From Capillidium heterosporum (lineage: Eukaryota; Entomophthoromycota; Entomophthoromycetes; Entomophthorales; Capillidiaceae): a stretch of DNA of 64,000 nt. A program made the translations under genes and the position numbers. The stretch spans positions 124,001 through 188,000 of the forward strand of contig WBMQ01000001.1 in the NCBI GenBank assembly GCA_016630905.1, in the 5' to 3' direction. The notes under the pieces are model-generated. The model was not told the DNA's origin, did not search any database, and was given only the letters and a program-made list of their open reading frames with translations. This document shows positions 34,729 to 62,400 of the stretch, piece by piece (position 1 is the first letter of the stretch; every line of letters begins with the position of its first letter).

Positions 34729-34770
34729 TTGTGAACACTGATTGAAATCGTACTTTCAGGGGTGAAGCAA
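34729..34770 (+). promoter_or_regulatory. U1 distal element, SSP-A1
   Basis: Contains GAACACTGATTGAAATCG followed by TACTTTCAGGGG. Near-identical blocks lie 470-590 bp before SSP-A1 to A5. Role unknown; it may be a distal control site or simply part of the duplicated unit. Confidence 0.5.
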
Positions 34771-34785
34771 CTCTACATTCTAAGA

Positions 34786-34868
34786 TACTATTCAGTTCAG
34801 CAAAACTGAGTAACCATGCTTAAGTTTAGTTTAAGCGTAACCACTCAGTTTTGCTAAACCGAGTAGTA
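34786..34868. mobile_element. short foldback MITE-like element with TA borders
   Basis: Two arms of about 26 nt, sharing AGCAAAACTGAGT in inverted orientation, enclose a small AT-rich centre with a further inverted TTAA/TTAA core. TA dinucleotides bracket the element, as in Tc1/mariner/pogo insertions. The matching place upstream of SSP-A2 (around 37075-37095) lacks it, giving a natural empty site. It has no coding capacity. A single arm-like sequence (CTCAGTTTTGCTAAACC) occurs alone near 55778. Confidence 0.6.
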
Positions 34869-35107
34869 TGTAGAAAGGATATTTAACATAGCACATTATG
34901 GTTTTTGCATTGGTGCCTCATAGACCTTTTTTTCTATAAACTGATTGGTTATGCCGTACATTGTCAATATATATATATATACTTTTAGCCATAAAGATAT
35001 AGATTAATAGAAACTAAGTTAAAGTTTTAAATCTATAAATAAACAGTTTGTAGGCGGCTTACTATATTTGGCAATAGGACCCGAAGCATCTTATACCTAG
35101 TCCTGCA

Positions 35108-35327
35108 TGTCGACGGCCAAGTATTAGAAAGCCCAAGGTATCGTTTTTATTTAAAAAAGGCTTGAATCTAGGTAGGCTCCTAAATTAGCTTAATATCAAA
35201 ATGGATCTAATGGTAGTATCTATACTAAAAGCCTTGACAACAACTAAGCAAAGTACGGTATATAAAGGCTCGAAAGGATAGCAATATCAAACACAATAAG
35301 CAATAAGATCTATTTGATATAGTAAAA
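35108..35327 (+). promoter_or_regulatory. SSP-A1 promoter: U2 box and TATA
   Basis: GTCGACGGCCAAGTAT is followed by the U2 core GAAAGCCC at 35127-35134, 200 bp before the ATG. TATATAAAGG lies at 35259-35268, 69 bp before the ATG. The same pair with the same spacing precedes SSP-A2. Confidence 0.6.
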
Positions 35328-35801
35328 ATGAAGTTCGCCTCCGTCGTATCCTTAGTTTTGGTAGCTGCTGGTCCAGCTCTGGCTGCCGGCTATTACCCAC
35401 CACCTTGTTACCCAGTTACCAAGACCGTCACCAAAACTGTCCCTACCACCATCACTGCCACTAAGACCGATATCCAGACTCAAACGGTTACCAGTACCGA
35501 GACCCAACAGATTACCAACACCGTTACCCAGCAGATTACCAATGTTGAAACTCAAACGGTTACCAGCACTGTTACCCAGCAGGTTCCCGTTACTGAAACC
35601 CAAACGGTTACCAACACTGTTACCCAGCAGGTTCCCGTTACCGAAACCCAAACGGTTACCAGTACTGCAACTCAGCATGTTACTGACGTCATTACTTCTC
35701 AAATTACCAACACCGTTACCCAAGATGTTACCAAGACCGCTACTGTAACTCACACTGCCCCATGCTCCACCCGCTACCCCCCTCCTCGTCCCTACTACTA
35801 A
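35328..35801 (+). CDS. SSP-A1, secreted Thr/Val octad-repeat protein
   Basis: 157 residues, no intron. The signal peptide MKFASVVSLVLVAAGPALA is followed by an aromatic/Pro segment (YYPPPCYP), a VTKTVTKTVPTT block, then roughly ten imperfect eight-residue units of the form TxTQxVTN (for example TETQTVTS, TVTQQVPV). The tail is CSTRYPPPRPYY, carrying the second of two Cys. Alternating Thr/Val favours extended beta structure, and the many Thr would suit O-glycosylation (inference). No known domain recognised. It is the longest member; units vary in number across the family. It is the first gene of the + strand array. Confidence 0.85.
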   Translation: MKFASVVSLVLVAAGPALAAGYYPPPCYPVTKTVTKTVPTTITATKTDIQTQTVTSTETQQITNTVTQQITNVETQTVTSTVTQQVPVTETQTVTNTVTQQVPVTETQTVTSTATQHVTDVITSQITNTVTQDVTKTATVTHTAPCSTRYPPPRPYY

Positions 35802-35825
35802 TGTAGCGACATTATATTAGCCCTT

Positions 35826-35851
35826 TTAAAATAAAGCCGGCTCTATTTTAA
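35826..35851. terminator. U3 3' hairpin of SSP-A1
   Basis: TTAAAATA and TATTTTAA pair around a GC-rich loop, starting 25 bp after the stop. The sequence includes AATAAA, so it may combine a stem with the poly(A) signal. Confidence 0.6.
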
Positions 35852-37024
35852 GCCATTTCTTTTATTTTCCACAAAGCTTTATGAAATATATATATGGAGC
35901 TTATAAATGTATAACTACATAGAGTAATTTTTACTACTTGGAAAAATTATTTTAATTTTTCAATTTGATATCTATCATTCTCTCTAAACTTAGGAAAGTA
36001 GAATGTAGCAAAAATAATCAACTATGTTTCAAATTGAACATTGTTTAACCATATATATTAGAGCTTAAAATAAACAGCACTTTCAATAATATATAGCAGT
36101 GGCATCTCAGATATAGAAAACTAACTGCAATAAGAAAGCTTTACTCAAATTTAAGAAAGTTTGCTTAGGTTTCTAAAAGTAATCTGCAGCTTACGCTTTA
36201 AATATTCCTAATATAATTTACACATCAAAGCTCTATGTTGCATTTCTCATATAGAATTATTAGCTATTCTGTATATTAAATTAGCTTATTATATTAATTT
36301 TGCAAATATATGGCTACTATTCAATTTCGAAAAGTACTTTTTTGCAATTGAGTTTTCAAGGCCATTTTCTACCTTACTTTTCCATATATCCTTTACAATA
36401 ATTACCTTTCTGTTTTAAAAGGAGTCTATTGTAAAAAAACAAGATAGGAAGTGCCCTAAAAGTCGCTCTATCTGTTCTAACAAACCTATAGTGGAGAAAG
36501 GTAAAATTAATGGAGTTACAAGTGTGGTCTAGAACAGCTGGTGCATCCTTTTTTATTAAACTAATTTGCAAATTTTTATGCGTAGCAGAATTATCCTTTA
36601 GAGAGACGCCTTTGAAAAGCCCTGCAGTTTAGGGAGTTCAAGGTTTGAATAGCAATTTTGAACATCAAATCTCATATTATTAATCACCAGTGTTACCTAT
36701 ACCAATAATTTATAGTAACGTAAAGGTATCTTTTGTAGTTATTAGTTGATTTATCCATTCAAACAGAAGACACCCAATTCATCGAAATCTTCATATGATG
36801 GGATATATTCCAACGTGCTGGGCTAATAAGGCAGTTTCAAAAGCTACTGAGCCAATATTTCAAATAATACGTTTTGTTTGAAAGTACATTAAAACTAAAA
36901 TATTATAAAAATAATATATCATATTTAAAAATAGATGGTCTTGCTTTTGTAGTATTCCAAATAGCCATATAAAAATTTCTGTAGATGTTATCTCTGATTC
37001 AAAACATAACAGCTTCATGTCGGA
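35852..37024. other. spacer between SSP-A1 and SSP-A2
   Basis: AT-rich, no gene recognised. The last part begins the next duplicated upstream unit. Confidence 0.4.
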
Positions 37025-37066
37025 GGTTGTGAACACTGATTGAAATCGTATTTTCAGGGGCGAGGT
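37025..37066 (+). promoter_or_regulatory. U1 distal element, SSP-A2
   Basis: GAACACTGATTGAAATCG followed by TATTTTCAGGGG, 470 bp before the ATG. Confidence 0.5.
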
Positions 37067-37275
37067 AATTCTACCTTCTATGTAGGATATGTAGCAATAG
37101 TACTCCATATAATACAATACATTTTTGCATTGATTCCTCATAACACTACCATTTTATAGGCTGGCTTGTTATACTGTGTGCTATATTAAATATACAAATA
37201 GTTCTAGCCATAAAATTTCTGAAAAGCGATCTACTATAGTTGACAACGAGATCCGAGGCATGCTATACTTAGTTC

Positions 37276-37498
37276 TGCATGTCGACGATCTAGTATTAGA
37301 AAGCCCAAGGTATCGTTTCTATTTAAAATGGCTTAAATCTAGGCAGAGTCCTAAATTAATTAAATATCAAAGTGGACCCGACTATAGCGGCTATACCAAA
37401 AGCCTTGACAACAACTAAGTAAAATACGATATATAAAGGCCCGAAATGATAACAATATCCAACAGAATAAGCAATAAGATCTATTTGATATAGTAAAA
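37276..37498 (+). promoter_or_regulatory. SSP-A2 promoter: U2 box and TATA
   Basis: U2 core GAAAGCCC at 37299-37306 (200 bp upstream) and TATATAAAGG at 37430-37439. Strong similarity to the SSP-A1 promoter over the whole 220 bp. Confidence 0.6.
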
Positions 37499-37969
37499 AT
37501 GAAGTTCACCTCCATCGTATCCTTAGTTTTGGTAGCTGCTGGTCCAGCTCTGGCCGCTGGCTACTACCCACCAGCCTGTCCAACCGTCACCAAAACTATC
37601 ACCAAAGCTGTCCCTACCACCGTCACTGCCACCAAGACCGATATCCAGACTCAAACGGTTACCAGTACCGAGACCCAGCAGGTTACCAACACCGTTACCC
37701 AGCAGATTACCAATATCGAAACTCAAACGGTTACTAATACTGAAACCCAGCAGGTTACCAATATTGAAACCCAAACGGTTACCAACACTGTTACTCAACA
37801 AGTTCCCGTTACCGAAACTCAAACGGTTACTAACACCGAAACCCAACATGTTACTGATGTTGTAACTGCTACTGTTACCAAGACTGAAAACCATGAGGTT
37901 ACTAAGACCGCTACTGTAACTCGTACCGCCGCATGCTCCACTCGCTACCCCCCTCCTCGTCCCTACTAA
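37499..37969 (+). CDS. SSP-A2, secreted Thr/Val octad-repeat protein
   Basis: 156 residues. Signal peptide MKFTSIVSLVLVAAGPALA, YYPPACP segment, TVTKTITKAVPTTVTATKTD, about nine octads (TETQQVTN, IETQTVTN, TVTQQVPV), then ENHEVTKTATVTRTAACSTR and a Pro/Tyr tail. It is the closest paralogue of SSP-A1, but the central units are arranged differently, consistent with slippage or unequal exchange within the 24-nt repeats. No frame damage. Confidence 0.85.
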   Translation: MKFTSIVSLVLVAAGPALAAGYYPPACPTVTKTITKAVPTTVTATKTDIQTQTVTSTETQQVTNTVTQQITNIETQTVTNTETQQVTNIETQTVTNTVTQQVPVTETQTVTNTETQHVTDVVTATVTKTENHEVTKTATVTRTAACSTRYPPPRPY

Positions 37970-37997
37970 TAATGTAGTGACGTTATATCGGCTCTTT

Positions 37998-38023
37998 TTA
38001 AAATAAAGTTAGCCCTATTTTAA
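37998..38023. terminator. U3 3' hairpin of SSP-A2
   Basis: TTAAAATA and TATTTTAA arms with loop AAGTTAGCCC, 29 bp after the stop. Confidence 0.6.
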
Positions 38024-39890
38024 GTGAATTTTAGATTTTCAAGACTTTACATATATCTTTGTACGCAACTTATAGTAACTATACTTGGAAAGTAGGGTAA
38101 TAATTTCAATTTTATTTTGTATAATTTACTCATTTTCTTTATATAAAGCTATACAAAAGTTAAATTGTACTTAAATGCTTACTATTCAAGTTTACATTTA
38201 TATTTCCTATCCAATGTATATAAGTAGTATACATAAACGATATCCAGACAACTCTTCAAATCGAAATATTTTCCTAACAGAAATAAGAATATCAAAATTG
38301 AATTTAAATATACTATTTCTATGGAAACTAATCAAAGTTTTATTCGATTTATCCAAGTATAAATGTTATATCGATGCCCTACAACACAAATTTTTGAAAG
38401 ATAATGGACGATTATATTGTGGGATATATCTAAATCTCCTAACTTTTTAGCATATTAAACTGCTGGTAAATGCTTTACTACCTTTGACGGTACGTATCAG
38501 GTACTCCAATATATAGGAAGCTTGATCAAAATTTGAGGGAGGTCAATACAGTTGTATATTGTAAGCTACTTTAGAATTGAGTTTTATCTAAAAACAGCCT
38601 CACTATTTGCTTTTCATCAAGATAAAGAGGTATAGAAATATATGTAAGCTACCCAAATCTTTATTGATTGATAATCAAATTTCGATTAAGAGTTGAATTA
38701 TACTTATTTTTGACTATAAATTTTATATGATACATTTTAAGCATCCTACTTTAAAAAAAGTAAAAGTCATGGTTAAATGGTTTGTATATTGGTTTATAGA
38801 TATATTCATCATCTGAGCTCCAAACTTCAAACTCCATAAAAAATCCATTGAACTGGGATTTGAATACCACATTTGTATTAAGATTCCAACATTGGAGCTC
38901 TTGTAGTAAATTTCAAATTGAGAGTATTTGTAGCACTGGATTTTTTGTGCTGAAAATAGAGAGGTTGTATTTCAACTATTAGCAGTTTTGTTCTGAATTA
39001 CTTTTAAAAATTGTTCTATTTCGAGTGCCAATGAGAAACTCAGATGTAGTAGATGCGTAAATTTAGCGACACAGGAGCTTTCTGTTACTCTACATAAGGC
39101 TTTTTCTAAATATGTGTCAAAAGCAGTGGTTCATATGTTTAATCCAAAACTAATGGAACTCAACGTAGTATTTTTCTACAAAATATGTATACCAGGAAAG
39201 TACACTATAAATAAAATTTTATTTATAGAAAAATTATACTTTAGACTGGCATCTTTTATGAAAGCCCTACAATTTAAGTTCTAGTTTTGAACACAAACGT
39301 TTTAACACTACTACCTAAATCCCTAATTAACTGTGCTACCATGCTAATTAATTATGGTGACGTGAAGGGCATTTGCAAAGTTATCGGTTGAGGCGTTCAT
39401 TTGAACTGTAAAGAATTATCCAGATAGGAGATGATGGATGTTTTTTATTCCTGCAAGTCAGATTATAGAAAATATAAAGCTATTATTGGGACTAAATGGA
39501 AAATAGTTCAAGCAATAGATTTCATTTTCTGTTTACCCTAAATCCGAAAGGAGTTTGATAGCATCCAATCGATTTACCGAAGCTTTTCTAGTATAAAGAA
39601 TATGTCCTAAGATTGTGAGCTGAGGCTTCAGGTATGATGTTACGAGTAGCTTTGTTTGAAATATATTCATAATAGGGCCAGGTGTGTCGATTTTACCGAT
39701 TTTTAGTGTGCATTTATAATAAATTAATATATCCCAACTTAAATAGATGTACGAGGGCTTTAGTATTATAGATAACACAGCGCACTAATTCGTCTCAAAC
39801 TATAGAATTTCGCCTACACAAATTACAAATATACCTACAAGTATTTTCATAGGTGATTCCTTTGATTTAAAACATATATACATTATTTCA
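38024..39890. other. spacer between SSP-A2 and SSP-A3
   Basis: 1.9 kb. A 91-codon open stretch at 38175-38450 has no signal or family resemblance and is not called. Leu-rich fragments near 38800-38950 may be relics. Nothing else supported. Confidence 0.35.
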
Positions 39891-39920
39891 GAGGTAGTGA
39901 ACACTAATTGAAATCAGAGC
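39891..39920 (+). promoter_or_regulatory. U1 distal element, SSP-A3
   Basis: GAACACTAATTGAAATC, about 515 bp before the ATG; a shorter match than in A1 and A2. Confidence 0.45.
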
Positions 39921-40146
39921 TACCAAAGCCTGCAATAGCTCACTCTTCCATGTGAAGTATGTAGTGGGTGTATTCAATACTATCCAGTATAGTTGCTGAA
40001 CTTTTATCCGATAGTTTTCACTTTCTATAAAGTTCTGGGTTATAGTGTACAACATGTCAGATATTATTAAGCAATTCATCAAAATTGCAAACAAATAGCT
40101 TGCTAGACTTGACAACTATATGTAAGGCAGCTGATGCTTGGTCATG

Positions 40147-40410
40147 CAGGTTGACTGTCAAGTATAAGGAAGCCCACAACATCGGTCTATTTCAAAAGCC
40201 TTAGTTCCAGGCAGGATCTTAGAACCGATGTTGTAACGAGTGGGCTTAGCTATAGCAACTTCATGACAAACCGTACCAACGTCGGCCGCCATTATGTCAT
40301 GGAAAGTTAGACAGCAGTCTACAAGTTCAGTTGTAAATAACGGTATATAAAGGCTCGAAATGATAGCAATATCCAACAGAATAAGCAATAAGATCTATCA
40401 AACAGTAAAA
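40147..40410 (+). promoter_or_regulatory. SSP-A3 promoter: U2 box and TATA
   Basis: Diverged U2 core GGAAGCCC at 40168-40175 and TATATAAAGG at 40344-40353, 67 bp before the ATG. Confidence 0.55.
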
Positions 40411-40650
40411 ATGAAGTTCACCTCCATCGCATCTTTGATTTTAGTAGCCGCTACTCCAGCGCTGGCCGCCGACTACAAACCCCCTTGCTACCCAGTTACC
40501 AAGACCATCACTAAAACCGTCCCCACCACTGTAACTGCTACTGTTACCAAGACCGAAAGCCATGAGGTTACCAAGACTGCTACCGTAACTCATACCGCAA
40601 CGTGCCCCCGTCCCTATCCCCCTCCTCCTCCTTACTCCCGCCCCTACTAA
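40411..40650 (+). CDS. SSP-A3, short secreted Thr-rich protein
   Basis: 79 residues: signal peptide MKFTSIASLILVAATPALA, YKPPCYP, then TKTITKTVPTTVTATVTKTE running directly into SHEVTKTATVTHTATCPRP and a Pro/Tyr tail. It has lost nearly all octads, so it shows the minimal family core: N-terminal Cys block, VTKT block, C-terminal Cys and Pro-rich end. ATG 40411 is chosen because the signal peptide begins here. Downstream it faces SSP-B1 tail-to-tail. Confidence 0.8.
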   Translation: MKFTSIASLILVAATPALAADYKPPCYPVTKTITKTVPTTVTATVTKTESHEVTKTATVTHTATCPRPYPPPPPYSRPY

Positions 40651-40682
40651 TAGATGCATTAGTATTGGCACCTTATCTACTT

Positions 40683-40709
40683 TTAAAATAAAACTGAGTT
40701 TTACTTTAA
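40683..40709. terminator. U3 hairpin between SSP-A3 and SSP-B1
   Basis: TTAAAATAAAA and TTTTACTTTAA arms, 11 nt each with one mismatch, around CTGAG. It lies 32 bp past the SSP-A3 stop and 173 bp past the SSP-B1 stop on the other strand, so it could serve both genes. Confidence 0.6.
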
Positions 40710-40882
40710 CTAGAATTTGGCTTTATTAAACTATAACAAACCATTTGTAGAAAATTGACAAATATATATACATATGCTATTAAATTTATTAAGCTAGTTA
40801 AAAAGAATTCCTATGACTACTGATATATTTAAATTTTTAGAGCTAGTTTGTTGAGGTGTACCTAAGTGAATTGAAGTTCCAG

Positions 40883-41134
40883 TTAGCCACTGGTAAAAGG
40901 GCCTCTTTTCCTTTGGGATTTACTACAGATGGCAGCTAATGCACTGACTCCAGCTGCTAAATCGGAGATAACACCAACAGCATTACCAGCTGTTCTCGGT
41001 ATGAATTTAGCAGCCTGTGTCCTGATAATTCTGGCAATGATAATGCCAGCTATCATTTGGGTGAAACTTGGCCTGGCTGAGATCATTTCAGCTAGACCTG
41101 CTAAGAGTATTAGGTGGATTTGGATAGGTTTCAC
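40883..41134 (-). pseudogene. SSP-B1, glycine-zipper-like peptide, start codon lost
   Basis: 83-codon open frame homologous to SSP-B3. It keeps the signal-like N terminus (IQIHLILLAGLAEMISA), the SFTQ motif, a hydrophobic small-residue core (RTQAAKFIPRTAGNAV, then SDLAAGVSALAAI) and a short basic end. The position of the family ATG reads GTG (41134-41132), and Arg has replaced Gly twice in the core, so it is probably dead or dying. The long Pro/Lys tail of SSP-B3 is missing. Confidence 0.6.
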
Positions 41135-42290: not shown

Positions 42291-42323
42291 ATTGTGGCTA
42301 CTAATTGAAATCGTACTGTCAAA
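42291..42323 (+). promoter_or_regulatory. U1 distal element, SSP-A4
   Basis: CTACTAATTGAAATCGTACTGTC, split over 42298-42320; about 535 bp before the lost start. Confidence 0.4.
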
Positions 42324-42832: not shown

Positions 42833-43047
42833 GTGAAATTCATTTGCTTTTTGCCTTTAGTCTTGGTAGCTGCCAATTACAGACCCAACCATATTCCCAT
42901 TTACAAGACTAATCAAAACTAGTAATATCGTCGTTGCTATCAAGACCAAGATAGCAAGTTGCTTGGCTACTAAAACAGCCACAAAGTCAGCTATAATGAC
43001 GGCTACAGTAACTCAAACTACCTCCTGCTTCCCCTTCCTATTACTAG
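42833..43047 (+). pseudogene. SSP-A4 pseudogene, start codon GTG
   Basis: Matches the family at the start (KFICFLPLVLVAA after the changed start codon), then the frame shifts and stops occur in the TKT region. The end again shows ATVTQTTSCFP and the usual TACTAG stop context. ATG to GTG at the first codon plus an internal frame loss make it a pseudogene. TATATAAAAA lies about 70 bp upstream and a U2 region around 42540-42600 is diverged, so control signals decay along with the gene. Confidence 0.7.
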
Positions 43048-43073
43048 ATGTAATAAATTCGACAACTTATATT

Positions 43074-43099
43074 TTAAAATAAAACCGTTTTTAATTTAA
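43074..43099. terminator. U3 hairpin of SSP-A4
   Basis: TTAAAATAAAA paired with TTTTAATTTAA around CCG. Still well formed although the gene is broken. Confidence 0.5.
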
Positions 43100-44832: not shown

Positions 44833-45138
44833 ATGAAATTCACCTCCGTTGTAACCTTAGCTCTGGTAGCCGTTACCCCAGCCCAGGCCACCTTCTGGCC
44901 AATTTGCCCGGCCTATCAAAACACGGTTACCAAGACCGAGACCAAAACTGTACCTACCTACAGAACTGCAACCAAGACCGAAATTCGTACCACTACCAGA
45001 ACTATCGTCAACAATATTATCAAGACCAAAGTTAATACCGTCACCAAGACTTTAGTTTCTCAAGTTATCAAACCTACCACTGTAACTGCGATTGAGACTG
45101 CTCCATGCTCTCAACCTTACTCCCAGCCTTACTACTAG
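44833..45138 (+). CDS. SSP-A5, secreted Thr-rich protein
   Basis: 101 residues. Signal peptide MKFTSVVTLALVAVTPAQA, then TFWPICPAYQ, followed by NTVTKTETKTVPTYRTATKT. The octads are replaced by a more basic stretch with Arg, Lys and Asn (TIVNNIIKTKVNTVTKTLVS). It ends VTAIETAPCSQPYSQPYY. It shares the TFWPxCP motif with SSP-A7 to A9 across the transporter gene, linking the two arrays. The frame is intact. Last gene of the + strand array. Confidence 0.8.
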   Translation: MKFTSVVTLALVAVTPAQATFWPICPAYQNTVTKTETKTVPTYRTATKTEIRTTTRTIVNNIIKTKVNTVTKTLVSQVIKPTTVTAIETAPCSQPYSQPYY

Positions 45139-45504: not shown

Positions 45505-47143
45505 TCACTCCTTCAAAGCGAACTCGGTCTGTTCAGCAGCTTCCTTAGCAGCATCCTCATCCTCCTTGGTCACGTACCAGAATTTAATCAAATATACAAA
45601 CAACAAGAAGGAGGCGGCTGATATGCCAATGAAGATCCACATAGCGTTGTTGTTACTTACTCCAGCAGCATGTAGGCCTTCAGTCAGTCCCAAAACCAAA
45701 TAATTACCAAAGGCAACTGTCAACAAGAAGATGGAGGTGGATGAGGCACGCATCTGCTTGCCAACTTGAGTATAGGCAAAGTGGTTACAGGTGGGGGACA
45801 GCATGGCTTCACCCAAGCTTAAAAGAATCCACTGAGGAAGTTGGATGGTACCATTGACGCACCCATTACAAGAGACGTAGTTCTTTTTGGCGTCAAGGAC
45901 CAAGTTGTGGGCGTAGCTATCTACATAGTACTGCAAACTAGTTGACAGGGTAAAAGCACATAAGACGAAGAAGTAGCCCCAGGCCATACGAGTCAACAAT
46001 GGCATCTTGATACCACGTTTTCCCAAAAAGGGATAAACGATGTAAGATAGGAAGGGTACGAATAGGATTATAAGGATGGAGTTAATATTGGAAGAAGCTT
46101 CAGTAGGAAGAGGGATAAAGTATAAAAAGTTATGGTTCATCTTGTCGTAGTTTTCCTGCCATTCGGTACCGTTTTGATCGTACAACATCCACCAAAATAT
46201 AATAGGGAAGAACATGACAATTACTTTGCCGAACAGCCGAGTCTCCTCAACCATCTCCGAACCGTAAGTATCTTGAGCGAAGTTTAACCAGTGGCCTTTA
46301 GCTTCACGCTCAGCGGGTGTAGCCTTACCAGTAGCGAGTGCGAGCTGATAAAGCTACCTTACAAGCTACGTAGGGCATAAACTTTTTAGTTGGAGGGACG
46401 ATACGGTAGTAGCGATACCCAAAGATGAAGACGGCCAGGGCGATAGCAAAGACTATAGTTGGGATACCATAGGCAAGGAAGTAACAGTTAGCTCCAAAGC
46501 ATTGAACATACTCCTTGAGGTAAGGGGTCAGGTATTGGGCGATCAAGGAACCGACATTGATGGCGATGTAAAAGAGACTGAAGAATTTATCTAACAGTTT
46601 TTCTTGTGACTTTAAGAACTGATCACCACCATGTGAAACCACACAGGGCTTGATACCTCCTGAGCCAATGGCTACCAACAGAGCAGGTACGATGAAGGCC
46701 CAGTAGGGATAGTTGCCGAATTCAGCGGCCAAGTTGTTGATTGAAAATATTGAAAGTAGGGCGTTACCGATGAGGTAGATGATGGAAAAGTAGACGATGG
46801 TATGGTACTTGCCTAAGAAAGAATCGGATATAGAGGCTCCAACCACTGGAAAGAAATAAACTAAACCGTTGAATAGATGTGTCTGTGATTTAGCAAAGTG
46901 CTCTTCATACCCAAATCCAGTGACCATGTACTTGTACAGTAAGTTCTTGATGCCATAATAACAGAACCTTTCGCAGAACTCGTTAGGAATGATGAAGAAG
47001 ATGGCTTTAGGGAACTTGTCGTGGTTGGCCTGTAGTTTGGCATCCAGTTCAGCGTTGATGATACGCTCTTGTTCCATCAACTGGCGTTCCCGTTCAGTCA
47101 GAGCTAGATTAAGATCGTGAATCGGGCTCTTAACGTCGCTCAT
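45505..47143 (-). CDS. POT/PTR2 proton-coupled peptide transporter, 2 exons or one frame break
   Basis: Major-facilitator symporter that imports di- and tripeptides with protons at the plasma membrane. The first part (47143 to about 46358) has the family landmarks FIIPNEFCERFCYYGIKNLL, GSGGIKPCVVSHGGDQF and FYIAINVGSLIAQYLTPYL. The second part continues with membrane segments including PLPTEASSNINSI and a charged C terminus. The two parts lie in different frames. A 34-nt GT-AG intron at 46357-46324 (minus strand) restores one frame of 534 residues and the right length for about 12 membrane spans. However, its 3' end (ggtaag) is atypical and no branch site is evident, so a single-base frameshift is the alternative. 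It sits between the two SSP-A arrays. Confidence 0.82.
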
Positions 47144-49465: not shown

Positions 49466-49711
49466 TTAAATATACAAGCATACCGAGCTTACTATATCTA
49501 GTAGTAAGGATGGGAAGCATGAAGTAGTTTCAGTTACAGTAACCGTCTTGATGATATCATGAGTTTCGGTCTTGGTCTTGGTAGCAGTAGTGGTGGCGGT
49601 ACTAATATCGATTATGATCTTGGTAACGGTAGTACAATTAAGTCGGCAGTAGTTAACCAGGGCTGGGGTAGCGGCTATAAAAACTAAAGATACGACGGAG
49701 GTGAATTTCAT
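49466..49711 (-). CDS. SSP-A6, altered C terminus
   Basis: 81 residues. It has a good signal peptide (MKFTSVVSLVFIAATPAL), CRLNCTTVTK with an extra Cys, a short TATTTATKTKTETHD block and TVTVTETTSCFPS. The normal stop codon after Tyr-Tyr is read in a shifted frame, so translation runs on for about 14 extra residues (LLLDIVSSVCLYI). It therefore looks like a recently frameshifted but still translatable member. CCTTTATATA (49765-49774) gives a TATA box on the minus strand at about -57. The U3 hairpin downstream is badly degraded. Confidence 0.6.
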   Translation of the reverse strand: MKFTSVVSLVFIAATPALVNYCRLNCTTVTKIIIDISTATTTATKTKTETHDIIKTVTVTETTSCFPSLLLDIVSSVCLYI

Positions 49712-51488: not shown

Positions 51489-51828
51489 ATGAAGTTCGTC
51501 AATCTCTATCTGACGCTACTAGCAAGTTTAACTGAAATCAGTATTAGCCAAACCCAACTTTGCCCAAGTAGCAGCCGGTATAACGATTGCTGGTACTATA
51601 GGAACACAAGCCAGCAAATTTCTACCAGGGACAACTGGTGCTATAGTAGGTGCTGTCTCTGGTCTATGTGCTGGGGCTGGTGCACTGGCTACCATACATA
51701 CCGAGTCCAAGAAGAAGGAAGAGGCCAAACCATCAAAGTCGAAGAAGAAAAGTTCAAAAGGCAGCAGCTCCAAGGGTCCAACAAAATCTAAAGCCAAAAA
51801 AGGCAAAAACAAGAAAGCAAAAAAATAA
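51489..51828 (+). pseudogene. SSP-B2, +1 frameshift after the signal peptide
   Basis: The start (MKFVNLYLTLLASLTEIS) is in one frame, but the rest of the homology to SSP-B3 lies in the next frame from about 51548: NFAQVAAGITIAGTIGTQ, then GTTGAIVGAVSGL and a tail of over 40 residues dominated by Lys and Ser. One extra base relative to SSP-B3 lies within 51540-51550. I see no intron able to absorb it. The mature region is otherwise open to its stop at 51828, so the loss seems recent. Tail-to-tail with SSP-A7. Confidence 0.65.
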
Positions 51829-51993: not shown

Positions 51994-52368
51994 CTAGTAG
52001 TAAGGACGAGAAGAGGGAGGAGGAGGAGGAGGAGGAACGTAGGGAGGAGAATAAGGAGGAGGGGAGGGAGGAGAGTAAGGAGTGGAGCACGCCGCAGTAG
52101 CAGTTAAGGTGGAAAACTTGGTAATGTCATAAGTAACTGTATTGGTAACTTGGGAAATTTTTGTCTTGGTCACCTGGTAAGTTTCGGTACGAGTAACATG
52201 TTTAGTTTTGGTCTTGGTTGAAGTGACTGTGGTAGGGCTAGCTTTGGTGACCGTATCGGTAGCGGTTTTAGTTACTGTGACAGGAAAGTATGCACATATG
52301 GGCCAGATATTGGCGATAACTGAGCTAGTAGCTACCAGAGCTACAGATACGATTGCAGTGAACTTCAT
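51994..52368 (-). CDS. SSP-A7, Pro-rich C-terminal tail
   Basis: 124 residues from ATG 52368. Signal peptide MKFTAIVSVALVATSSVIA, NIWPICAYFP, then TVTKTATDTVTKASPTTVTS and a TKTKTKHVTRTETYQVTKTK block. The C-terminal Cys is followed by an expanded proline tail of about 30 residues (PPSPPPYSPPYVPPPPPPP) ending SSRPYY. Expansion of the tail rather than of the octads sets it apart, suggesting different cell-wall or polymer contacts (inference). The frame is intact. Confidence 0.8.
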   Translation of the reverse strand: MKFTAIVSVALVATSSVIANIWPICAYFPVTVTKTATDTVTKASPTTVTSTKTKTKHVTRTETYQVTKTKISQVTNTVTYDITKFSTLTATAACSTPYSPPSPPPYSPPYVPPPPPPPSSRPYY

Positions 52369-53487: not shown

Positions 53488-53514
53488 TTAAAGTAAAAGC
53501 CAGCTTTATTTTAA
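53488..53514. terminator. U3 hairpin of SSP-A8
   Basis: TTAAAGTAAAA and CTTTATTTTAA arms around GCCAG, 31 bp past the ancestral stop. Confidence 0.55.
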
Positions 53515-53544
53515 AAATAGGCAAATATACTCTCGCTACTACAT

Positions 53545-53866
53545 CTAGTAGTAAGGATTGTAGCTGGGAGGAGGGGGGTACGGACGAGAGCATGTTGCAG
53601 ACACAGTTACCGTAGAAAAGTTGATAACCTCATGAGTAACAGTATCAGGTAACCTGGGAAATCTGAGTTTTAGTAATCTCTTGAGTTTCAGTAGTGATAG
53701 TAGTTTGAGTTTCAACCTGGGTCTTGGTTGCAGTAAGTGTAGTAGGAGTAGTTTTGGTAATGGTCTTGGTGACGGACTTGGTAACTGTAGGACATAGAAG
53801 CCAGAAGGTGGCGAGGACTGGGCTAGTAGCTGCCAGAGCTACATATACGACTGCAGTAAACTTCAT
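53545..53866 (-). pseudogene. SSP-A8, one-base insertion near the end
   Basis: From ATG 53866 the frame gives a normal signal peptide (KFTAVVYVALAATSPVLA), TFWLLCPTVTKSVTK and a VETQTTITTETQEITKTQ block, then stops at 53645 after QVT. The remaining family sequence, including the second Cys, continues in another frame to the usual TACTAG stop at 53545. Comparison with SSP-A9 (QVTDTVTQQVTN) places a single extra T around 53644. The protein made would lack the C-terminal Cys and Pro/Tyr end. Confidence 0.7.
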
Positions 53867-55077: not shown

Positions 55078-55103
55078 TAAAGTAAAAACCAGTTTTATTT
55101 TAA
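55078..55103. terminator. U3 hairpin of SSP-A9
   Basis: TAAAGTAAAA and TTTTATTTTA arms, 30 bp after the stop. Confidence 0.6.
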
Positions 55104-55132
55104 AATTTCATAAAGTACCAGCCCTACTATAT

Positions 55133-55426
55133 CTAATAGTAAGGACGGGAACATGGTGCAGTTTTGGTTACCGTAGAAAAGTTGGTAACCTGCTGAGTAA
55201 CAGTATCGGTAACCTGAGAAACTTGGGTTTGGGTTATGTTTTGGGTTTCGGTACTAGTGGTAGTTTGAGTTTCAACCTGGGTCTGAGTTGCAGTAATGGT
55301 GGTGAGAGTAGCTTGAGTGACTGTCTTAGTAACGGTCTTGGTGATTATAGGACAGAAAGGCCAGAAGGTAGCGAGGACTGGAGTAGTAGCTACCAGAGCT
55401 ACATATACGATTGCAGTGAGCTTCAT
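55133..55426 (-). CDS. SSP-A9, secreted Thr-rich protein
   Basis: 97 residues. Signal peptide MKLTAIVYVALVATTPVLA, TFWPFCPIITK, then TVTKTVTQATLTTITATQTQ, a VETQTTTSTETQNITQTQVS octad region, QQVTNFSTVTKTAPCSRPYY. Intact frame and complete set of family landmarks. The intact reference for the damaged SSP-A8. Confidence 0.82.
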   Translation of the reverse strand: MKLTAIVYVALVATTPVLATFWPFCPIITKTVTKTVTQATLTTITATQTQVETQTTTSTETQNITQTQVSQVTDTVTQQVTNFSTVTKTAPCSRPYY

Positions 55427-56033
55427 CTTCGGTACCGTTGGATAGGGTGCTAATTTTTTGTCTTTGGATGTTACAAAGCCTGTGGGCTTTTATATGCAAT
55501 TTTTATGTAAGTGGCTGTAGTGAGGCTTTTGATGACATCAAACCGGCAAGACCACTTGGCAGTAATTCTTAAGGATATACCACTTTGTTCGGAAAATTGT
55601 GCCAATTTCTACAAACTCAGTTGTGAAAAATTACACAGCTTTACTGGGCGGAAGAGATCTGATTTTAAGACTTTAATTAAAACACGTATCTGGGCTTTTC
55701 AATGTTCTTGCAAAATAAAGTAATTTAGGATTAGTGTCCGATATTTTGCATATCGTTATCAGGAATAGCAAGCTACTACTCAGTTTTGCTAAACCAATGT
55801 CTACTAATAGTTTCGATGAATCGCTATGTTATTGAATGCTGATATAGTGTACAATGGAACTTATCCGTTTATATAAGATGCGTATTGTGGGTCATATATA
55901 TAGTAATTATATGTGAATATTAGTATTCAAATAAGTTCTGCAATTCAATTTTGAACTTGTATGAAATTGCACCTCTTTTCTGTAAAAAGTGGCATGAATA
56001 CTTAGTGATATCTTGCAAGAATCCGATATCACG
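55427..56033 (-). promoter_or_regulatory. SSP-A9 upstream region
   Basis: U2-like core AAAAGCCC on the minus strand at 55699-55692, 266 bp before the ATG. TTTTATATGC near 55490 may act as TATA. A lone sequence resembling one arm of the 34.8-kb MITE is at about 55775-55796. Confidence 0.45.
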
Positions 56034-56058
56034 TAAAGTAACCCCAGTGTTATTTTAA
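56034..56058. terminator. U3 hairpin of SSP-A10
   Basis: TAAAGTAAC and GTTATTTTA arms, weakened pairing, 31 bp past the ancestral stop. Confidence 0.5.
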
Positions 56059-56088
56059 AAATATGCAGGCATACCGAATTTACTACAT

Positions 56089-56295
56089 CTAGTAGTAAGT
56101 GCATAGGCAAGAGTTTTTAATTGTGGTAGCCATCTCAGTAACCTCATGAGTTTCGGTCTTGGTCTTCATAGCAGTGATGGTGGTGGTACTGATGTGGGTG
56201 ACAATTCAAGTGAAGGTAGCACAGCTGAGTCGGTAACAGTTGTGCAGGGCTAGGATGATGGTTACCAAGACTGAGGATAAAGCAAAGAACTTTAT
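56089..56295 (-). pseudogene. SSP-A10 pseudogene, start codon ATA
   Basis: The family start context is kept but the first codon is ATA. The signal region (KFFALSSVLVTIILALH) is followed by a stop within 40 codons in the Cys region. Later blocks (TKTETHEVTEMATT) sit in a shifted frame up to the conserved TACTAG end. Closest in wording to SSP-A6, which also has TKTETHD. Confidence 0.65.
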
Positions 56296-58086
56296 TTTAT
56301 GATTTTATGATTTTTGCAGTTATTTATGTTGGAGATTATCAAATTTTTGTACCTTTATATATCGTTTTTGATGGATGCTGCTGATATGGCCTTCGATATA
56401 GCTGCTACCGCCAAAGAGAGCTATAGAATAGGTTTAGGAATATTTTCGATTGTAAAGTTTTTAAAATAGACGAGTGTCTTGAGCCTTTTAAAACTCCTGG
56501 CAAGCAGCCTACATGCTGAAGTAGTGGGTACTTACTGCTAAACATAGCAAGCTATTTATCTGCATTATTATACGTTGGAAATGCATTAAATACCACTATA
56601 GTATAATATAGGTAGCTTATTTATGAAATATGAGCGTTATGGATATAAATAAAGCAATTATACATTATTAGTTTACACTTGGAATACATTTCGCAAAGTG
56701 AAGTGTCCTCCAATTTCGGTAAGATTTCTTAATTTCGATTAGCATTCACAGCCGGAATTTGGTTTTAGGTTCCAAATTAGATGAACTGTCTATATAATAT
56801 TTCTTTACGTTTTACTATAGGAAATATATAGACAAGAGCAATATAGTTCATAATTTAATAGTGTAACTTTATTTAAAATCAAAAATATATACTATATAAT
56901 CTACAATTTAAGATGCTATATAGCAGTATATCGAATATTGCTTTTCCAAAACCACATTGGTTAAAAAACTATGTATAGCTATAAAAATATGCATATATGT
57001 ATAATGAAACTATTTTTATAGAATAATTCCATGCTTTTATTAATAAAAAGGCTTTAAATTGAGCTGAGTAGTGCTATAGCCTTAAGTAGAATACATTTTG
57101 CACAGCTTTAGAGTGCCTATGTTACTTCTTTCAAGCTGTTGGACCTACCTTCCTTCCATCTACTTTGTAAAGCACACCCCCTAATTAATGGAAATGTTTT
57201 CTAGATAGATGTAGAGCCAACTTATAGTGAATTAGAATGCTGGCACTACTTAGGAGTATCTTCTAAAGTATATCAGAACAAACCAAGCAAAGATCCAGAT
57301 TCTAAATTTACGAAAGGTTTATATGATGTAAAGAGCAGCAGTATACCTTTAATATATTAATTCTCTTTCAGGTGCTATTAATACGATTTTCAACATTTGT
57401 ACAAATGTTCCCTTTATTACAGCTCTGCAGTCACAATCGGAACACCAAACTAATTCTCCCAATAAATTAGGAAGCCCTTCATTTTATTTCCATATTAAGT
57501 TATTCAAGAATCCGAAAGTAATATTTCGGACATTTTATATCTATATATATGTCAGCATATATTTATTAAGCAGTTAGAATCCCTTATTTTCAGTGCACAT
57601 GTGCCCAAAGAACTCGCGAAATATGTACAAATATCCTTATAGTAGACATTTGCTATTTTGCAACATCCACTATTAATATATTTAAAAGAAACAAGAACAA
57701 AGGTCGAGTATGCAGGCTGTCACGTTTATGGTTGGAGATTTGAAGGAGCGGAGTGCATTATCGTGGAGGTAAGTACTACCGTTTAATTTAATAAAACCCC
57801 TACCTTTTGATTCTTAAAATATTTTTAGATTCAGATTCCAATATATTATATATTTAATGTATACTAAAAATAACCAGGAAACTAGGCTAAATCTTTCTAT
57901 CGCTAGATAGCCAAATGCATGAGATACGAGACATTATTTAATTTAATAAGAGGCACATGCTTCCAGTTTCAGCGACGACCTCCACCAACCTAGTTCAAAA
58001 AGTATATATACCAGGCTCTAATTCCCTATACACGACATCACCCAACAAACTGGAAAACCCAAGCAATCAAACTTTAAAAAATTACT
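56296..58086. other. spacer upstream of SSP-A10 and SSP-B3
   Basis: 1.8 kb. A U1-like block for SSP-A10 lies near 56,720-56,760 (minus strand). From about 57,240 the sequence is the counterpart of 50,700-51,480. TATATATACC near 58005 is a likely TATA box for SSP-B3. Confidence 0.45.
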
Positions 58087-58470
58087 ATGAAGTTCGTCCA
58101 TATCTACCTAACGATCCTTTTAAGTCTAACCGAGATGATTTCAGCCAAACCCAACTTCACCCAGGTGGCAGCTGGTGCAACCATCGCTGGGACAATCGGT
58201 ACGCAGGTTGCTAAATTTATACCAGGGACGGCTGGCACTGTAGTTAGTGCCGTCTCCGGTCTAGCTGCTGGCGCTGGTGCCTTAGCCACCATCCGTAACG
58301 AGTCCAAGAAGAAGAAGGAAGCTTTGTTGCCTCTACCTAATCAGAACCCTAACCCACCCAGTCGTACCTCAACCGTCCAATCTCAGAGGCCTAACTCTCC
58401 TCCAGCTAATATCCCTCCGCCTCCAAAAGCTAAAACCAAAGCTACTGGTGGCCGCAGGAATTCAGTCTAG
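58087..58470 (+). CDS. SSP-B3, secreted glycine-zipper-like peptide
   Basis: 127 residues, single exon, the only intact SSP-B member. Predicted signal peptide MKFVHIYLTILLSLTEMISA, then KPNFTQ. A roughly 45-residue hydrophobic core of small residues follows, with GxxxG-like spacing (AAGATIAGTIGTQ, GTAGTVVSAVSGLAAGAGA). A basic cluster (NESKKKKEA) and a Pro/Asn/Ser/Lys-rich tail ending ATGGRRNSV close it. Glycine-zipper cores of this type insert in membranes or assemble in many unrelated small proteins. No specific family recognised; a membrane-active or wall-linked role is inference only. It ends 135 bp from the convergent SSP-A11 relic. Confidence 0.78.
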   Translation: MKFVHIYLTILLSLTEMISAKPNFTQVAAGATIAGTIGTQVAKFIPGTAGTVVSAVSGLAAGAGALATIRNESKKKKEALLPLPNQNPNPPSRTSTVQSQRPNSPPANIPPPPKAKTKATGGRRNSV

Positions 58471-58539
58471 TTTACTTAATAAAATTACTAACCATTTCAC
58501 ACGACTTCTTGCCTATATGAATGTTTTGTTGAGTATTGT

Positions 58540-58576
58540 TTAAAGTACAAAATAAGTTAAACAAGTTTTATTTTAA
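58540..58576. terminator. U3-derived hairpin between SSP-B3 and SSP-A11
   Basis: TTTAAAGTA ... and GTTTTATTTTAA are kept, but the middle is expanded to about 15 nt. Located 30 bp past the SSP-A11 end and 70 bp past the SSP-B3 stop. Confidence 0.5.
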
Positions 58577-58605
58577 AAATAGATAGAACACCGACATTAC
58601 TACAT

Positions 58606-58791
58606 CTAGTAATGCGGACGGGAGCATGGAGCAGTTTCAGTGAAATTGATGATCTTGGTTTCGGTGGTGATGACAGTGTAAGCACTAGTCTTGGTGATGG
58701 TAACAGTAGAAGTATACTTGGATCGATACTATTTGCCAAGAGTTGAAATTGCAGCAATCAAGACTAAGGATACAAAGGAAGTAAATTGAAA
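58606..58791 (-). pseudogene. SSP-A11 pseudogene
   Basis: The family start reads TTT instead of ATG. A signal-like region (QFTSFVSLVLIAAISTLGK) runs into a TAG stop at the mature start. Beyond it the frame is still family-like (YTSTVTITKTSAYTVITTET, then FTETAPCSRPHY). Loss of the start and one nonsense change are the visible defects. A U2 core (GAAAGCCC, minus strand 58990-58983) survives about 190 bp upstream. Confidence 0.7.
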
Positions 58792-59566
58792 CTTTTACAG
58801 TTTACAGCTGATACTATTTTTTATGTTTGTTAAAAACTGCTATAATTATGAATCCTTATATATCATTCTTTTAGTTTATAGATGTTGTTATAGCTTTTGA
58901 GATAGCTACTACCGTCAAGTAGAGTTGCAAAAATAAATTTTAAAAATCATGGCTCAAGGCTTTTCAAAAATAGATGGACACTGGGCTTTCCCAAACTTTT
59001 GACAAGCGCCTGCAGAGCCAAGTACCGTTTTTTAACAAAACTGTAAACTAGTTTCCAACTGAGCTTGTAAAAAACTATATAGTTTTACTAAATGGACTTT
59101 ATCAGATGCTCAAGGCATCGCTGCCAGACGTAGTAGGTCACTTATTGACATTTTTTAAATACTAGTAAGCATTAAATGGAAATATAGTTTATAATGAAGC
59201 TCATTACTAAATAAAATAAGAATTATAAACATCAATGTAGCAGTTATGTTAGGAGATTCTAAATACATTAGAAATTGGCAAGGTCTTCCGATTTAAGTTG
59301 GTATGTTTAATTGAAAAGGCCATTTATACAAAACTTTTATAGCTTTACCTACAAAGCCCATTTAATTTCAAATAGTGTAATACAATAGCATACCACAGTT
59401 TTACTTTACATAATTTTGGCAGAGGTAGGGAACACCACTCGGTTCCAAAAACCTGAAAATCTTTATACAAGACCTATCATCGTCAAATCATAAACTTTTC
59501 TATGTATAGTAAAATTTTCAGCTCCATACAAATGCTTCATAAAACTATGTAAAGAATAAGCATAAT
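58792..59566. other. upstream region of the SSP-A11 relic
   Basis: Contains the surviving U2 box and a U1-like block near 59,265-59,300. No gene. Confidence 0.45.
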
Positions 59567-59592
59567 TTAAAGTAAAAGCCAGTTTATTTTAA
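59567..59592. terminator. U3 hairpin of SSP-A12
   Basis: TTAAAGTAAA and TTTATTTTAA arms around AGCCAG, 31 bp after the stop. Confidence 0.6.
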
Positions 59593-59623
59593 AAATATGG
59601 TAGGGATGCTGATGGTATTACAT

Positions 59624-59836
59624 CTAATAGTAAGGACGGGAGCATGGGGCAGTCTTAGTTACAGTAGCAGTGTTGGTAACCTGCTGAGTCTCAGTCTCAG
59701 TCTTGGTGGCAGTGACGGTGGCGGTGCGAGTTTTATTGATGGTCTTGGTAATGGTCTTACAAATGGGATGGTAGTTGGCAGCGAGGGCTGGGCCAGCGAC
59801 TACGAGGATCAAGGATACGACGGAGGTGAATTTCAT
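59624..59836 (-). CDS. SSP-A12, minimal secreted Thr-rich protein
   Basis: 70 residues. Signal peptide MKFTSVVSLILVVAGPALA, NYHPICKTITKTINK, then TATVTATKTETETQQVTNTA and TVTKTAPCSRPYY. Only about two octads remain. It differs from SSP-A13 at a modest number of residues, and the surrounding kilobase is duplicated with it. Frame intact. Confidence 0.82.
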   Translation of the reverse strand: MKFTSVVSLILVVAGPALAANYHPICKTITKTINKTRTATVTATKTETETQQVTNTATVTKTAPCSRPYY

Positions 59837-61447
59837 TTTAATAGTTTTTGCTTGGTACTATTGCTTGTTTTATTAGAGACTCCCAGGATTTTGGGACTTT
59901 ATATATCTTTTATGTAATATCCTACTCAGATAAACTATGTGCTATTTTACAATTAGCTTTATCAAAGATTACCCAGTTTTCAAGACAAAGTAGTAGCCGA
60001 TATTGTTACGGCTTGCGATGAAGTTGCTATCATCAAGATTGCCTTGTTGTAAGACTGGTTTTAGAGACCACCCGTATAAAGGCTTTTAAATAGACCTATA
60101 CCATGGGCTTTCTTATACTCGACAGTCGGCATACATGCCTAAGTATAAACTACTTCAGGTCTCGTTGACAAGCCTAGCAAGCTATTTACTAACATTATTG
60201 CGAATTGATAAGTTCGAAAATATTGACACATCGTATCCATATAGCCAATCAATGTATAAAAATTAACATTAAAGGACATCAATGCAATAATTATGTTGAA
60301 TACACATGCTACATATCTTGCCTAAAAATGGAACTGCTTCGTACTTTTCCGGTCTACAATTCAAGCAATATTCATAACCCCTGAAATAGTAGAGGTATTA
60401 CAAATTAGAGAAACCATTTATTAAAGTATCCTTATATTGCCACTTTTAAAATCGAGCAAGAAAATTCACCTAATTTATAATAAAGTATATATTAAGTTTA
60501 CATCTTATTAGTCTTTGTGGCTTTCGGAACTATCTCCCCAGCTCATCACGTTGAAATATACCCATTATATTTATGTTTCAATGGATATATTGTTCCCTAC
60601 TTGGATTATTTATCAACTCCAATGAATCCATCAACAAAAAACTATCAAATATACCTTCACGTAACCATAAATGACTGGCATGGTGACACGGTTGATTAGG
60701 AATAAAAGTGTTAGTATCCAAACCTTGAACATCCTAAATCGTAGGGCTTTTCGAAGGTATTAGTCTAAAGTATATTTCTACTATGCATAATAGTTTTACA
60801 AAGCTCAGCAAAGTTGGATGTTGACTCTTTTCTAAACTACACCTATTGCTTTATCAAAATATACTTTTGTAGTTGTAAGTGTAAATGAAACAAAAGAAGC
60901 AATTTTTACCAATTCAATTGTAAAAACACATCTTTACTGTACTTAAAAGTCATACATCGATAGTTTGGATGGATTTATAGAGTGCTAAATGGAAATAAAA
61001 TGTAGGTATATCTCAGCTTTATAGAAGAAGAGTGCTGTAGAAATCGTTGCAAAACTTGAAAAATCAAATATTTACATTTATATTTCATATTAAAAATTAG
61101 ACAAATTGCTCTGAAGGTTGGCAATATCTTTTAATTTCTATTGGCATTTTCATGTCAAGAAATAGCGCTGCTAAGTTTTGTATTAAAAGAAAAGTAAAAT
61201 GAAAGTTTTTTATAGTTGTTTATATTTTTGCACAAATAAGATCCATACTGTTTGAAATGTAGCATATGAATTTTGCTGTAACTTTTCATTTTCATAATAT
61301 CATTATTTGAAAGGTGATAGATGCCGCTCATTGGAGTAAGCTCAAATAATTTTTACAGAGCCAAAAGAAAGCTTACATATTTATACATAATAAATACATA
61401 CTTTAGCTCCATACAAATATTTAATAAAGCCTTGTAAAATAAATAAT
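59837..61447 (-). promoter_or_regulatory. SSP-A12 upstream region and spacer
   Basis: Minus-strand TATATAAAG near 59905 (about -65) and U2 core GAAAGCCC at 60112-60105 (about 270 bp before the ATG). The block 60,000-60,720 is duplicated at about 61,880-62,390; both contain ATAAATGACTGGCATGGTGA. The rest, to 61.4 kb, shows no gene. Confidence 0.5.
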
Positions 61448-61473
61448 TTAAAGTAAAAGCCAGTTTATTTTAA
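61448..61473. terminator. U3 hairpin of SSP-A13
   Basis: Same arms as the SSP-A12 copy, 30 bp after the stop. Confidence 0.6.
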
Positions 61474-61503
61474 AAAATGATGGGGGGTACTACGTTACTA
61501 CAT

Positions 61504-61716
61504 CTAATAGTAAGGACGGGAGCATGGAACAGTCTTGGTTACAGTAGCAGTGTTGGTAACCTGCTGAGTCTCAGTCTGAGTCTTGGTGGCGGTAACGGTG
61601 GCAGAATGAATCTTGGTGACGGACTTGGTAAGGGTAACACAGACTGGATGATAGCCACCAGCCAAGACTGGGGTAGCAGCTACGAGGACCAAGGGTACTA
61701 CGGAAGTGAACTTCAT
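61504..61716 (-). CDS. SSP-A13, minimal secreted Thr-rich protein
   Basis: 70 residues. Signal peptide MKFTSVVPLVLVAATPVLA, GGYHPVCVTLTKSVTK, then SATVTATKTQTETQQVTNTA and TVTKTVPCSRPYY. The C-terminal half is almost identical to SSP-A12, so the two come from a recent tandem duplication of a roughly 1.9-kb unit. It is the outermost member of the minus-strand array. Confidence 0.82.
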   Translation of the reverse strand: MKFTSVVPLVLVAATPVLAGGYHPVCVTLTKSVTKIHSATVTATKTQTETQQVTNTATVTKTVPCSRPYY

Positions 61717-62400
61717 TTCAATGGGTTTCTGATTGATTTTATTGCTTGTTTTATTAGATATAGAAATTTTCGAGCCTTTATATATCTTTTTACGTGCTAT
61801 TATGTTAACATAAACTATGTGCTATTTTATAATTTAAATTATAAGGTATTATCTTTTTCAAGGCATGGTGGTATCCGATGCTGGTACGGCTTACCATGAA
61901 CCTGCTACATTCAAAACCAACTCGTTGTAAGGCTGGTTTGAGGGACTTGTTTGGATCTAAGACTTTTCAAATAGACCGATACTATGGGCTTTCTTATACT
62001 CAACGGTCGGTATGCATGCCCAAGTACAAACTACCTTAGACTGCATTGCAAACTACTTGCTAGCAGCTTTGATATGCTAAATTGCAAAGTGCTGATATAT
62101 TTCACGATATATTCAATCAATCTGTAAAAAACCAACATTTAGGATATCAATGCGATAGCTATTTTGGGAAGTATTGACTCGTGATTTTCGGAGCTTCCTC
62201 CTCAGATCATCTTTTCGGAATATATCCTTTACAATATGAAGCTTTGATAATTAGATTCTCTCCTATTTGGATTGTTCTTTATCTTTACAATAAACATAAA
62301 AACCAACAACTATCTAAATGTACTTTTCCACGTCACCATAAATGACTGGCATGGTGATACGTTTAATGAAGGATAGAGTGTATGTATCCAAATATCGATG
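61717..62400 (-). promoter_or_regulatory. SSP-A13 upstream region
   Basis: Minus-strand TATATAAAGG at 61784-61775 and U2 core GAAAGCCC at 61993-61986, 270 bp before the ATG, the same spacing as SSP-A12. Confidence 0.55.

Follow-up and report, generated by a model that had tools for sequence, protein, structure and literature searches.

An island of small, putatively secreted Thr-x-Thr repeat proteins in Capillidium heterosporum, tentatively read as a beta-strand ladder family

Fungal adhesins carry Ser/Thr-rich repeats that are glycosylated (PMC6023273, PMC9306254), and in Als5 amyloid formation depends critically on a segment within a Thr-rich domain (PMC9306254). We describe a family of small Thr/Val-repeat proteins, family A, encoded by an island of genes in the Capillidium heterosporum genome (GenBank assembly GCA_016630905.1, 29.5 Mb in 44 contigs). 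The island lies in a 64-kb window (contig C1, WBMQ01000001.1, positions 124001–188000), and positions below are those of the window unless a contig or locus is named. Between two Cys, nearly all Thr of these proteins fall on one parity, and we favor, with some reserve, the reading that they are wall or matrix proteins assembling through beta strands.

Like Als/Flo-type adhesins, the A proteins are Thr-rich, made of tandem repeats with beta-prone Val/Ile/Thr sequence and, to judge by a signal-peptide-like start, putatively secreted, but they are 70–157 amino acids (aa) long rather than 600–2500 (PMC6023273), have no ligand-binding domain detected by Pfam above cut-off, alternate by single residues and have two flanking Cys. 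A hydrophobic C-terminus of the glycosylphosphatidylinositol-anchor type was absent from the eight intact copies, as judged by eye rather than with a predictor. Hydrophobins have eight spaced Cys, as against two in intact A copies (four in the altered copy A6). KEX2-processed repeat proteins, including repellents, are small secreted fungal repeat proteins, as the A proteins may be, whereas none of the nine open A proteins contains a dibasic pair. Ustilago Rsp3, a hypha-decorating protein of variable length (PMC5923269), shares with family A repeats, length variation and, putatively, secretion, as do other repetitive effectors that are secreted; Rsp3 differs, by its published description, in being much longer and in having a Cys-rich region. 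Another lineage-restricted group of surface proteins with repeats is that of the AGL proteins of Glomeromycotina, for which an elastic or amyloid nature has been proposed (PMC8786786). Gly, Pro and Ala abound in them and they are described as disordered, in contrast to the Thr/Val composition of A. Ice nucleation and TxT antifreeze proteins resemble A in their Thr-x-Thr arrays and 16-residue period, but the consensus 16-residue, Gly/Tyr-bearing beta-solenoid coil (PMC10727499) does not occur in A.

Searches of Pfam and NCBIfam gave no match to family A above cut-off, and a PDB profile search and two protein searches, one of which scored the 7993 candidates with most shared words, gave none. 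Sub-cut-off names (GRDB, Bflower_2, DUF7507, HpsJ_like_C and others) were weak and were taken as chance. The profile searches, which could have placed the proteins in a described adhesin or hydrophobin family, thus leave standing the view of the initial annotation that they belong to no known family; since the protein databases may hold few proteomes of early-diverging fungi, "orphan" here means orphan in these databases. No such family is described in the titles and abstract openings that searches of open-licence papers returned.

Architecture, threonine phase and selection

Each intact A copy has the same order of parts: a signal-peptide-like MKFTSVVSLVLVAA-type start, a Cys, a VTKT-like block, the repeat part, a second Cys and a Pro/Tyr tail. 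A simple hydropathy rule marks the N-terminus (MKF...) as hydrophobic, and the eight intact C-termini, read by eye, are Pro/Tyr sequences ending in RPYY, RPY or QPYY. After residue 19 there are two Cys in all eight intact window copies and four in A6. Gly is absent after the first Cys, and the octads contain neither Gly nor Tyr. From residue 20 onward, the 12 sequences compared for selection below contain 24–41% Thr and 1–12% Ser, with four N-glycosylation sequons in total. Tandem repeats of varying number are present in A1 and A2, and the short copies have about two units. Relative to residue shuffles, self-identity at lags of 8, 16 and 24 residues gave z scores of 6.9, 10.0 and 7.8 in A1 and 8.4, 11.3 and 9.9 in A2, the strongest period among lags 1–24 being 16 residues, i.e., an octad pair. 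Counted in the TQ register, A1 has 11 octads, and A12 has about two by eye; the range first proposed was from about 10 in A1 to 2 in A12.

The phase of Thr was counted in 10 sequences, the eight intact window copies and two from contig C23; A6 and A8 were excluded as altered or broken. Between the two Cys, 224 of 235 Thr have the parity of the first Cys, so that Thr occupies 224 of the 309 in-phase positions and 11 of the 309 that are off-phase, where the main residues are Val (78), Lys (49), Ala (32), Gln (32), Glu (27), Asn (17) and Ile (16). All 10 sequences have a Cys-to-Cys stretch of even length (30, 38, 66, 68 or 118 residues), and 80 of 82 pairwise gaps are even as well, although the sequences are related and these events are not independent. 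Shuffles of the same composition had a mean parity of 0.55–0.59, and A6 and the open part of A8 reached 0.81. In two distant copies on contig C6, both lacking the octad, 17 of 17 and 41 of 45 Thr are in phase, with end points chosen by the analyst. In a scan of 171 kb and 28 open frames (38-residue windows with at least 10 Thr, median per frame), the eight intact window copies scored 0.82–1.00, as compared with 0.55–0.70 in eight non-family frames, one of which is the antisense of a C6 copy, leaving seven unrelated frames, several of uncertain gene status. Scan medians were lower in A4 (0.80) and A8 (0.76). Identity was higher at in-phase than at off-phase sites in all nine pairs shown of the 45 aligned, individually significant in three.

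To gauge selection, 12 copies (nine from the window, the open part of A8 and two from C23) were compared in 66 pairs by the ratio of nonsynonymous to synonymous substitution rates (dN/dS). The ratio was 0.20–0.50 in 56 pairs, below 0.20 in four and above 0.50 in five, and could not be computed in one; p was below 0.05 in 63 of the 66, the exceptions being two pairs with A6 and one with the broken A8. All 28 pairs of intact window copies gave ratios of 0.13–0.60 with p < 0.05. Judged by these codon comparisons, the A genes are under purifying selection and look like real genes, and the ratios together with the repeat-lag scores indicate that the family is not a product of chance. Codon bias was also considered as a sign of high expression and rejected: the Thr codons ACC and ACT make up 0.81–1.00 of Thr codons in nine A genes and 0.77–0.94 in seven control stretches, so that the bias is mostly genome-wide.

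What the ladder may form

Alternation, abundant beta-branched residues and the lack of Gly together give the sequence the look of a long beta strand whose two faces differ. In the reading we prefer, the mature part of an A protein is a single Thr-x-Thr-x ladder between two Cys, followed by the Pro/Tyr tail. The ladder would form extended beta strands with Thr on one side and Val/Ile, Lys, Gln, Glu and Ala on the other; strands could pair within a molecule, as a hairpin, or between molecules, giving a cell-surface or matrix layer that is amyloid-like or cross-linked, and octad number would set strand length. That A is a small secreted wall or matrix protein self-assembling in this way is a view we place somewhat short of probable; the proteins would be expressed and would have an adhesive or coating role. 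An AlphaFold model of A1 places strands at residues 30–55 and 119–144, next to the two Cys.

Several observations weigh against beta assembly. Confidence in the A1 model is low (mean predicted local distance difference test score, pLDDT, 46; predicted template modeling score, pTM, 0.24), so that it is not a fold determination. Parity is only 0.83 in A5 and 0.82 in A9, and it is weaker in parts of the C6 copies, where the 3' part of one stands at 0.75 and a broken one at 0.70. Of the Thr in the relics A4, A10 and A11, respectively 8 of 9, 11 of 14 and 10 of 11 are still in phase, so that inheritance from a founding repeat explains part of the pattern and retained phase is not proof of selection. 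Finally, a Thr-rich protein that is secreted is likely to be heavily glycosylated, and heavy glycosylation is said not to be compatible with cross-beta structure (PMC9306254).

This last point leads to the main alternative, a mini-mucin, which we regard as possible but doubtful. The Thr face would be densely O-mannosylated in the secretory pathway, making the protein an extended brush of glycans within the wall or slime, with the two Cys as links, and the alternation would do no more than space the glycans. The Thr and Ser content given above fits such a protein, as do the glycosylated Ser/Thr-rich repeats of adhesins (PMC6023273, PMC9306254) and the presence of a long Ser/Thr-rich, mucin-like gene beside the C6 copies. 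However, parity and even Cys spacing are needed by a beta strand and not by a mucin, the neighboring mucin-like gene has a median Thr parity of 0.64, and the off-phase sites are rich in beta-formers (78 Val and 16 Ile among 309). Where the initial annotation had offered beta-sheet stacking or heavy O-glycosylation, the phase and spacing counts tilt the choice toward the former, within the limits set by inherited phase and the low-confidence model. A wall or matrix beta protein and a mannosylated mini-mucin could both be partly true.

It is unlikely that the proteins are host- or prey-facing surface effectors, which would coat hyphae and either shield them or attach to molecules of the host, while an arms race changed the numbers of copies and octads. 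Rsp3 provides a hypha-coating, length-variable precedent (PMC5923269), genes are born and die in the island (four of 13 copies broken and one altered, with 2–11 octads), and subtilisin genes lie within the same window. Against this, dN/dS is below 1 in all 65 computable pairs, and there is thus no overall sign of diversifying selection.

A second orphan family of small, putatively secreted proteins, B, bears on a further alternative. Its intact window member, B2, has a signal-like start, a Gly-rich hydrophobic part, a basic stretch, a Pro-rich tail and an RRNS-like end. B had no match in a protein search, and Pfam gave weak sub-cut-off names only. AlphaFold, with three sequences, predicted helices at residues 24–44 and 49–79 (mean pLDDT 56, pTM 0.24). 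A search of the assembly returned 14 rows, read as 13 loci, of which five are tail-to-tail with an A copy: those beside A3, A7, A11 and two C23 copies, with spacers of 254, 171, 138, 149 and 353 bp in that order. The A3, A11 and C23 spacers align at 70–71% over 163–192 bp, the A7 spacer aligns only across a block common to A copies, and the 16-base word GGTTAGTAAnTTTATT, near the end of B, occurs in four of the five spacers (A7, A11 and both C23) and nowhere else in the window. Because the spacers align and share this word, the A–B unit was probably duplicated as a pair.

A further reading is that A and B act jointly, B as a membrane-active secreted peptide and A as its sequestering partner or wall anchor, with the tail-to-tail pair ancestral. 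The arrangement of all three window B copies and two on C23 (138–254 bp apart in four, 353 bp in one), the resemblance of the spacers and the two predicted helices after the start of B are consistent with this. Yet eight of the 13 B loci have no A on the stretches fetched around them, where the matches to A were two, both weak and of low complexity; 10 of the 13 window A copies have no B; and the GAAAGCCCA box found upstream of A genes (see below) is not upstream of B. Nor are both genes intact in any of the five pairs: next to A3, A7 and the two C23 copies B is degraded or has a broken frame, and next to the intact B2 it is A11 that is a relic. This makes a working pair less likely still. We consider joint action very improbable.

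Least credible of all is an ice-binding or ice-nucleating protein in which Thr-x-Thr arrays order water: TxT arrays in 16-residue repeats are the water-organizing motif of ice nucleation proteins (PMC10727499) and 16 is the strongest period in A, but the octads lack the Gly and Tyr of the published coil consensus (PMC10727499), no Gly follows the first Cys, and the low-confidence AlphaFold model of A1 contains no solenoid.

Island, distant copies and shared flanking elements

The 13 A homologues occupy 35.3–61.7 kb of the window (Table 1). Re-examination gave the same count as the initial annotation, eight intact and five broken or altered (A6 altered; A4, A8, A10 and A11 broken), and the coordinates and a Pfam match bear out two arrays, five copies on the plus and eight on the minus strand, facing each other across a PTR2 transporter gene. 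An origin of the two arrays by a single inversion is no more than a possibility: plus- and minus-strand copies require two and three changes on a tree of copies in which five of 13 inner branches are well supported. No Rfam family or tRNA was found in the 64-kb window.

Table 1. Coordinates of family A, family B and neighboring features (window positions unless a contig or locus is named).
Feature	Position	Strand	Remarks
A1	35328..35801	+	157 aa, 11 octads
A2	37499..37969	+	156 aa; dN/dS against A1, 0.31
A3	40411..40650	+	79 aa; short repeat part
A4	about 42835..43061	+	relic; no ATG at expected start; altered tail resembles that of A6
A5	44833..45138	+	101 aa
A6	49466..49711	-	81 aa; tail in shifted frame, extra Cys
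A7	51994..52368	-	124 aa; long Pro-rich tail
A8	53548..53866	-	frameshift near 53648
A9	55133..55426	-	97 aa
A10	56060..56295	-	relic
A11	58609..58788	-	relic
A12	59624..59836	-	70 aa
A13	61504..61716	-	70 aa
PTR2 (POT) transporter gene	45505..47143	-	between arrays; apparently two exons; PF00854, E 4.7e-41 and 3e-29
B copy	40904..41134	-	degraded; tail-to-tail with A3
B copy	51489..51822	+	frame changes after signal-peptide-like start; tail-to-tail with A7
B2	58087..58470	+	intact, 127 aa; tail-to-tail with relic A11
AGAAAGCCCA box of A1	35126..35135	+	-202
AGAAAGCCCA box of A2	37298..37307	+	-201
AGAAAGCCCA box of A12	60104..60113	-	-277
AGAAAGCCCA box of A13	61985..61994	-	-278
Near-palindromic element	34784-34868		upstream of A1
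Antisense open frame over A1	35352-35816	-	Gly-, Asn- and Leu-rich
Antisense open frame over A2	37523-38008	-	Gly-, Asn- and Leu-rich
Inverted repeat, 1800 bp	9183-10982 / 25961-27760		arms 99% complementary
Subtilisin frame	24511-25743
Subtilisin frame	11894-12361		partial
Multi-module TxT gene, C23	L026:6252-6953	-	frameshifted
Mucin-like frame, C6	L029:2399-4123	-	near distant A copies
B-like genes, C42	C42:222997-229734		loci L043, L044

The family extends beyond the island. Contig C23 carries A copies at 474.3, 476.0–476.3 and 478.2 kb and a partial copy near 482.2 kb; two of them are identical in protein and mutually inverted, and one is of 60 aa. Three more distant copies, one with stops, lie at 236.9–240.3 kb of C6. 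A frameshifted gene on C23 contains several Cys-flanked TxT modules (PNTVTQTETVTSTGTIT...CPSPCY) and an RRPYY end, and is apparently a multi-module cousin of A. The mucin-like frame on C6 is long, Ser/Thr-rich and composed of many STSTRPY units, the RPY motif of which resembles the A tail. On C42, four B-like genes on one strand are followed by GDSL lipase-like genes (identified by eye), and no A was found there.

All 13 copies have a TATA-type box 63–71 bp before the start or its equivalent, which is TATATAAA or TATATAAG in 10 and a variant in A5, A7 and A9. In a plain count over both strands of the window, the 9-mer GAAAGCCCA has eight sites, each of them upstream of an A gene and on its coding strand; two of the eight sites precede A7, one at 561 bp. 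A AGAAAGCCCA-like box lies 200–280 bp upstream of nine of the 13 copies and at -98 in A4, with none in A5, A6 or A10. The box of A1 recurs exactly or with one base changed before A2, A7, A8, A11, A12 and A13, and as a shorter match before A3 and A9. Thirteen gapless stretches anchored on the GAAAGCCCA motif carry 1.5 bits per base at the motif and 0.21–0.95 elsewhere; given the anchoring, part of the former value is built in, and the one independent signal is the ATTTnAAAA block close by (0.85 bits).

Genome-wide, the box with a TATA box at 105–135 bp was found at six places (two for a reversed-pattern control), four of them A copies, and at 180–210 bp in 12 rows representing 10 distinct places (control, one), again four of them A copies; the relic A11 and the broken A8 were counted as A copies. 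The arrangement is typical of family A and not exclusive to it. Many A copies also have in common a AAAATAAAACTGGCTTTTACTTTAA-like block directly after the stop codon, and common descent may explain part of the shared upstream and 3' sequence.

Other features of the window were recorded in passing. The near-palindromic element upstream of A1, of about 84 bp, has at least 25 or so dispersed matches on both strands and is possibly a miniature mobile element. The long open frames antisense to A1 and A2 are probably a mechanical product of Thr/Val codons. Each arm of the 1800-bp inverted repeat carries the same subtilisin frame (S8 with I9 propeptide), and the window has further subtilisin frames.

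Bearing on fungal surface proteins

Adhesion molecules beyond the best-studied yeasts are sparsely described (PMC6023273). We think it quite improbable that family A represents a new structural kind, in which a register-locked Thr-x ladder between two Cys would give a one-sided Thr sheet whose length can be tuned, and would first have spread together with a Gly-rich, membrane-active partner as a tail-to-tail unit. On any reading, the family is compact and follows a simple rule, Thr on one parity with even spacing, and it comes with natural variants of 30–118 residues between the Cys. With proteins as short as 60–70 residues, one could thus test how repeat number relates to beta assembly and to surface properties.

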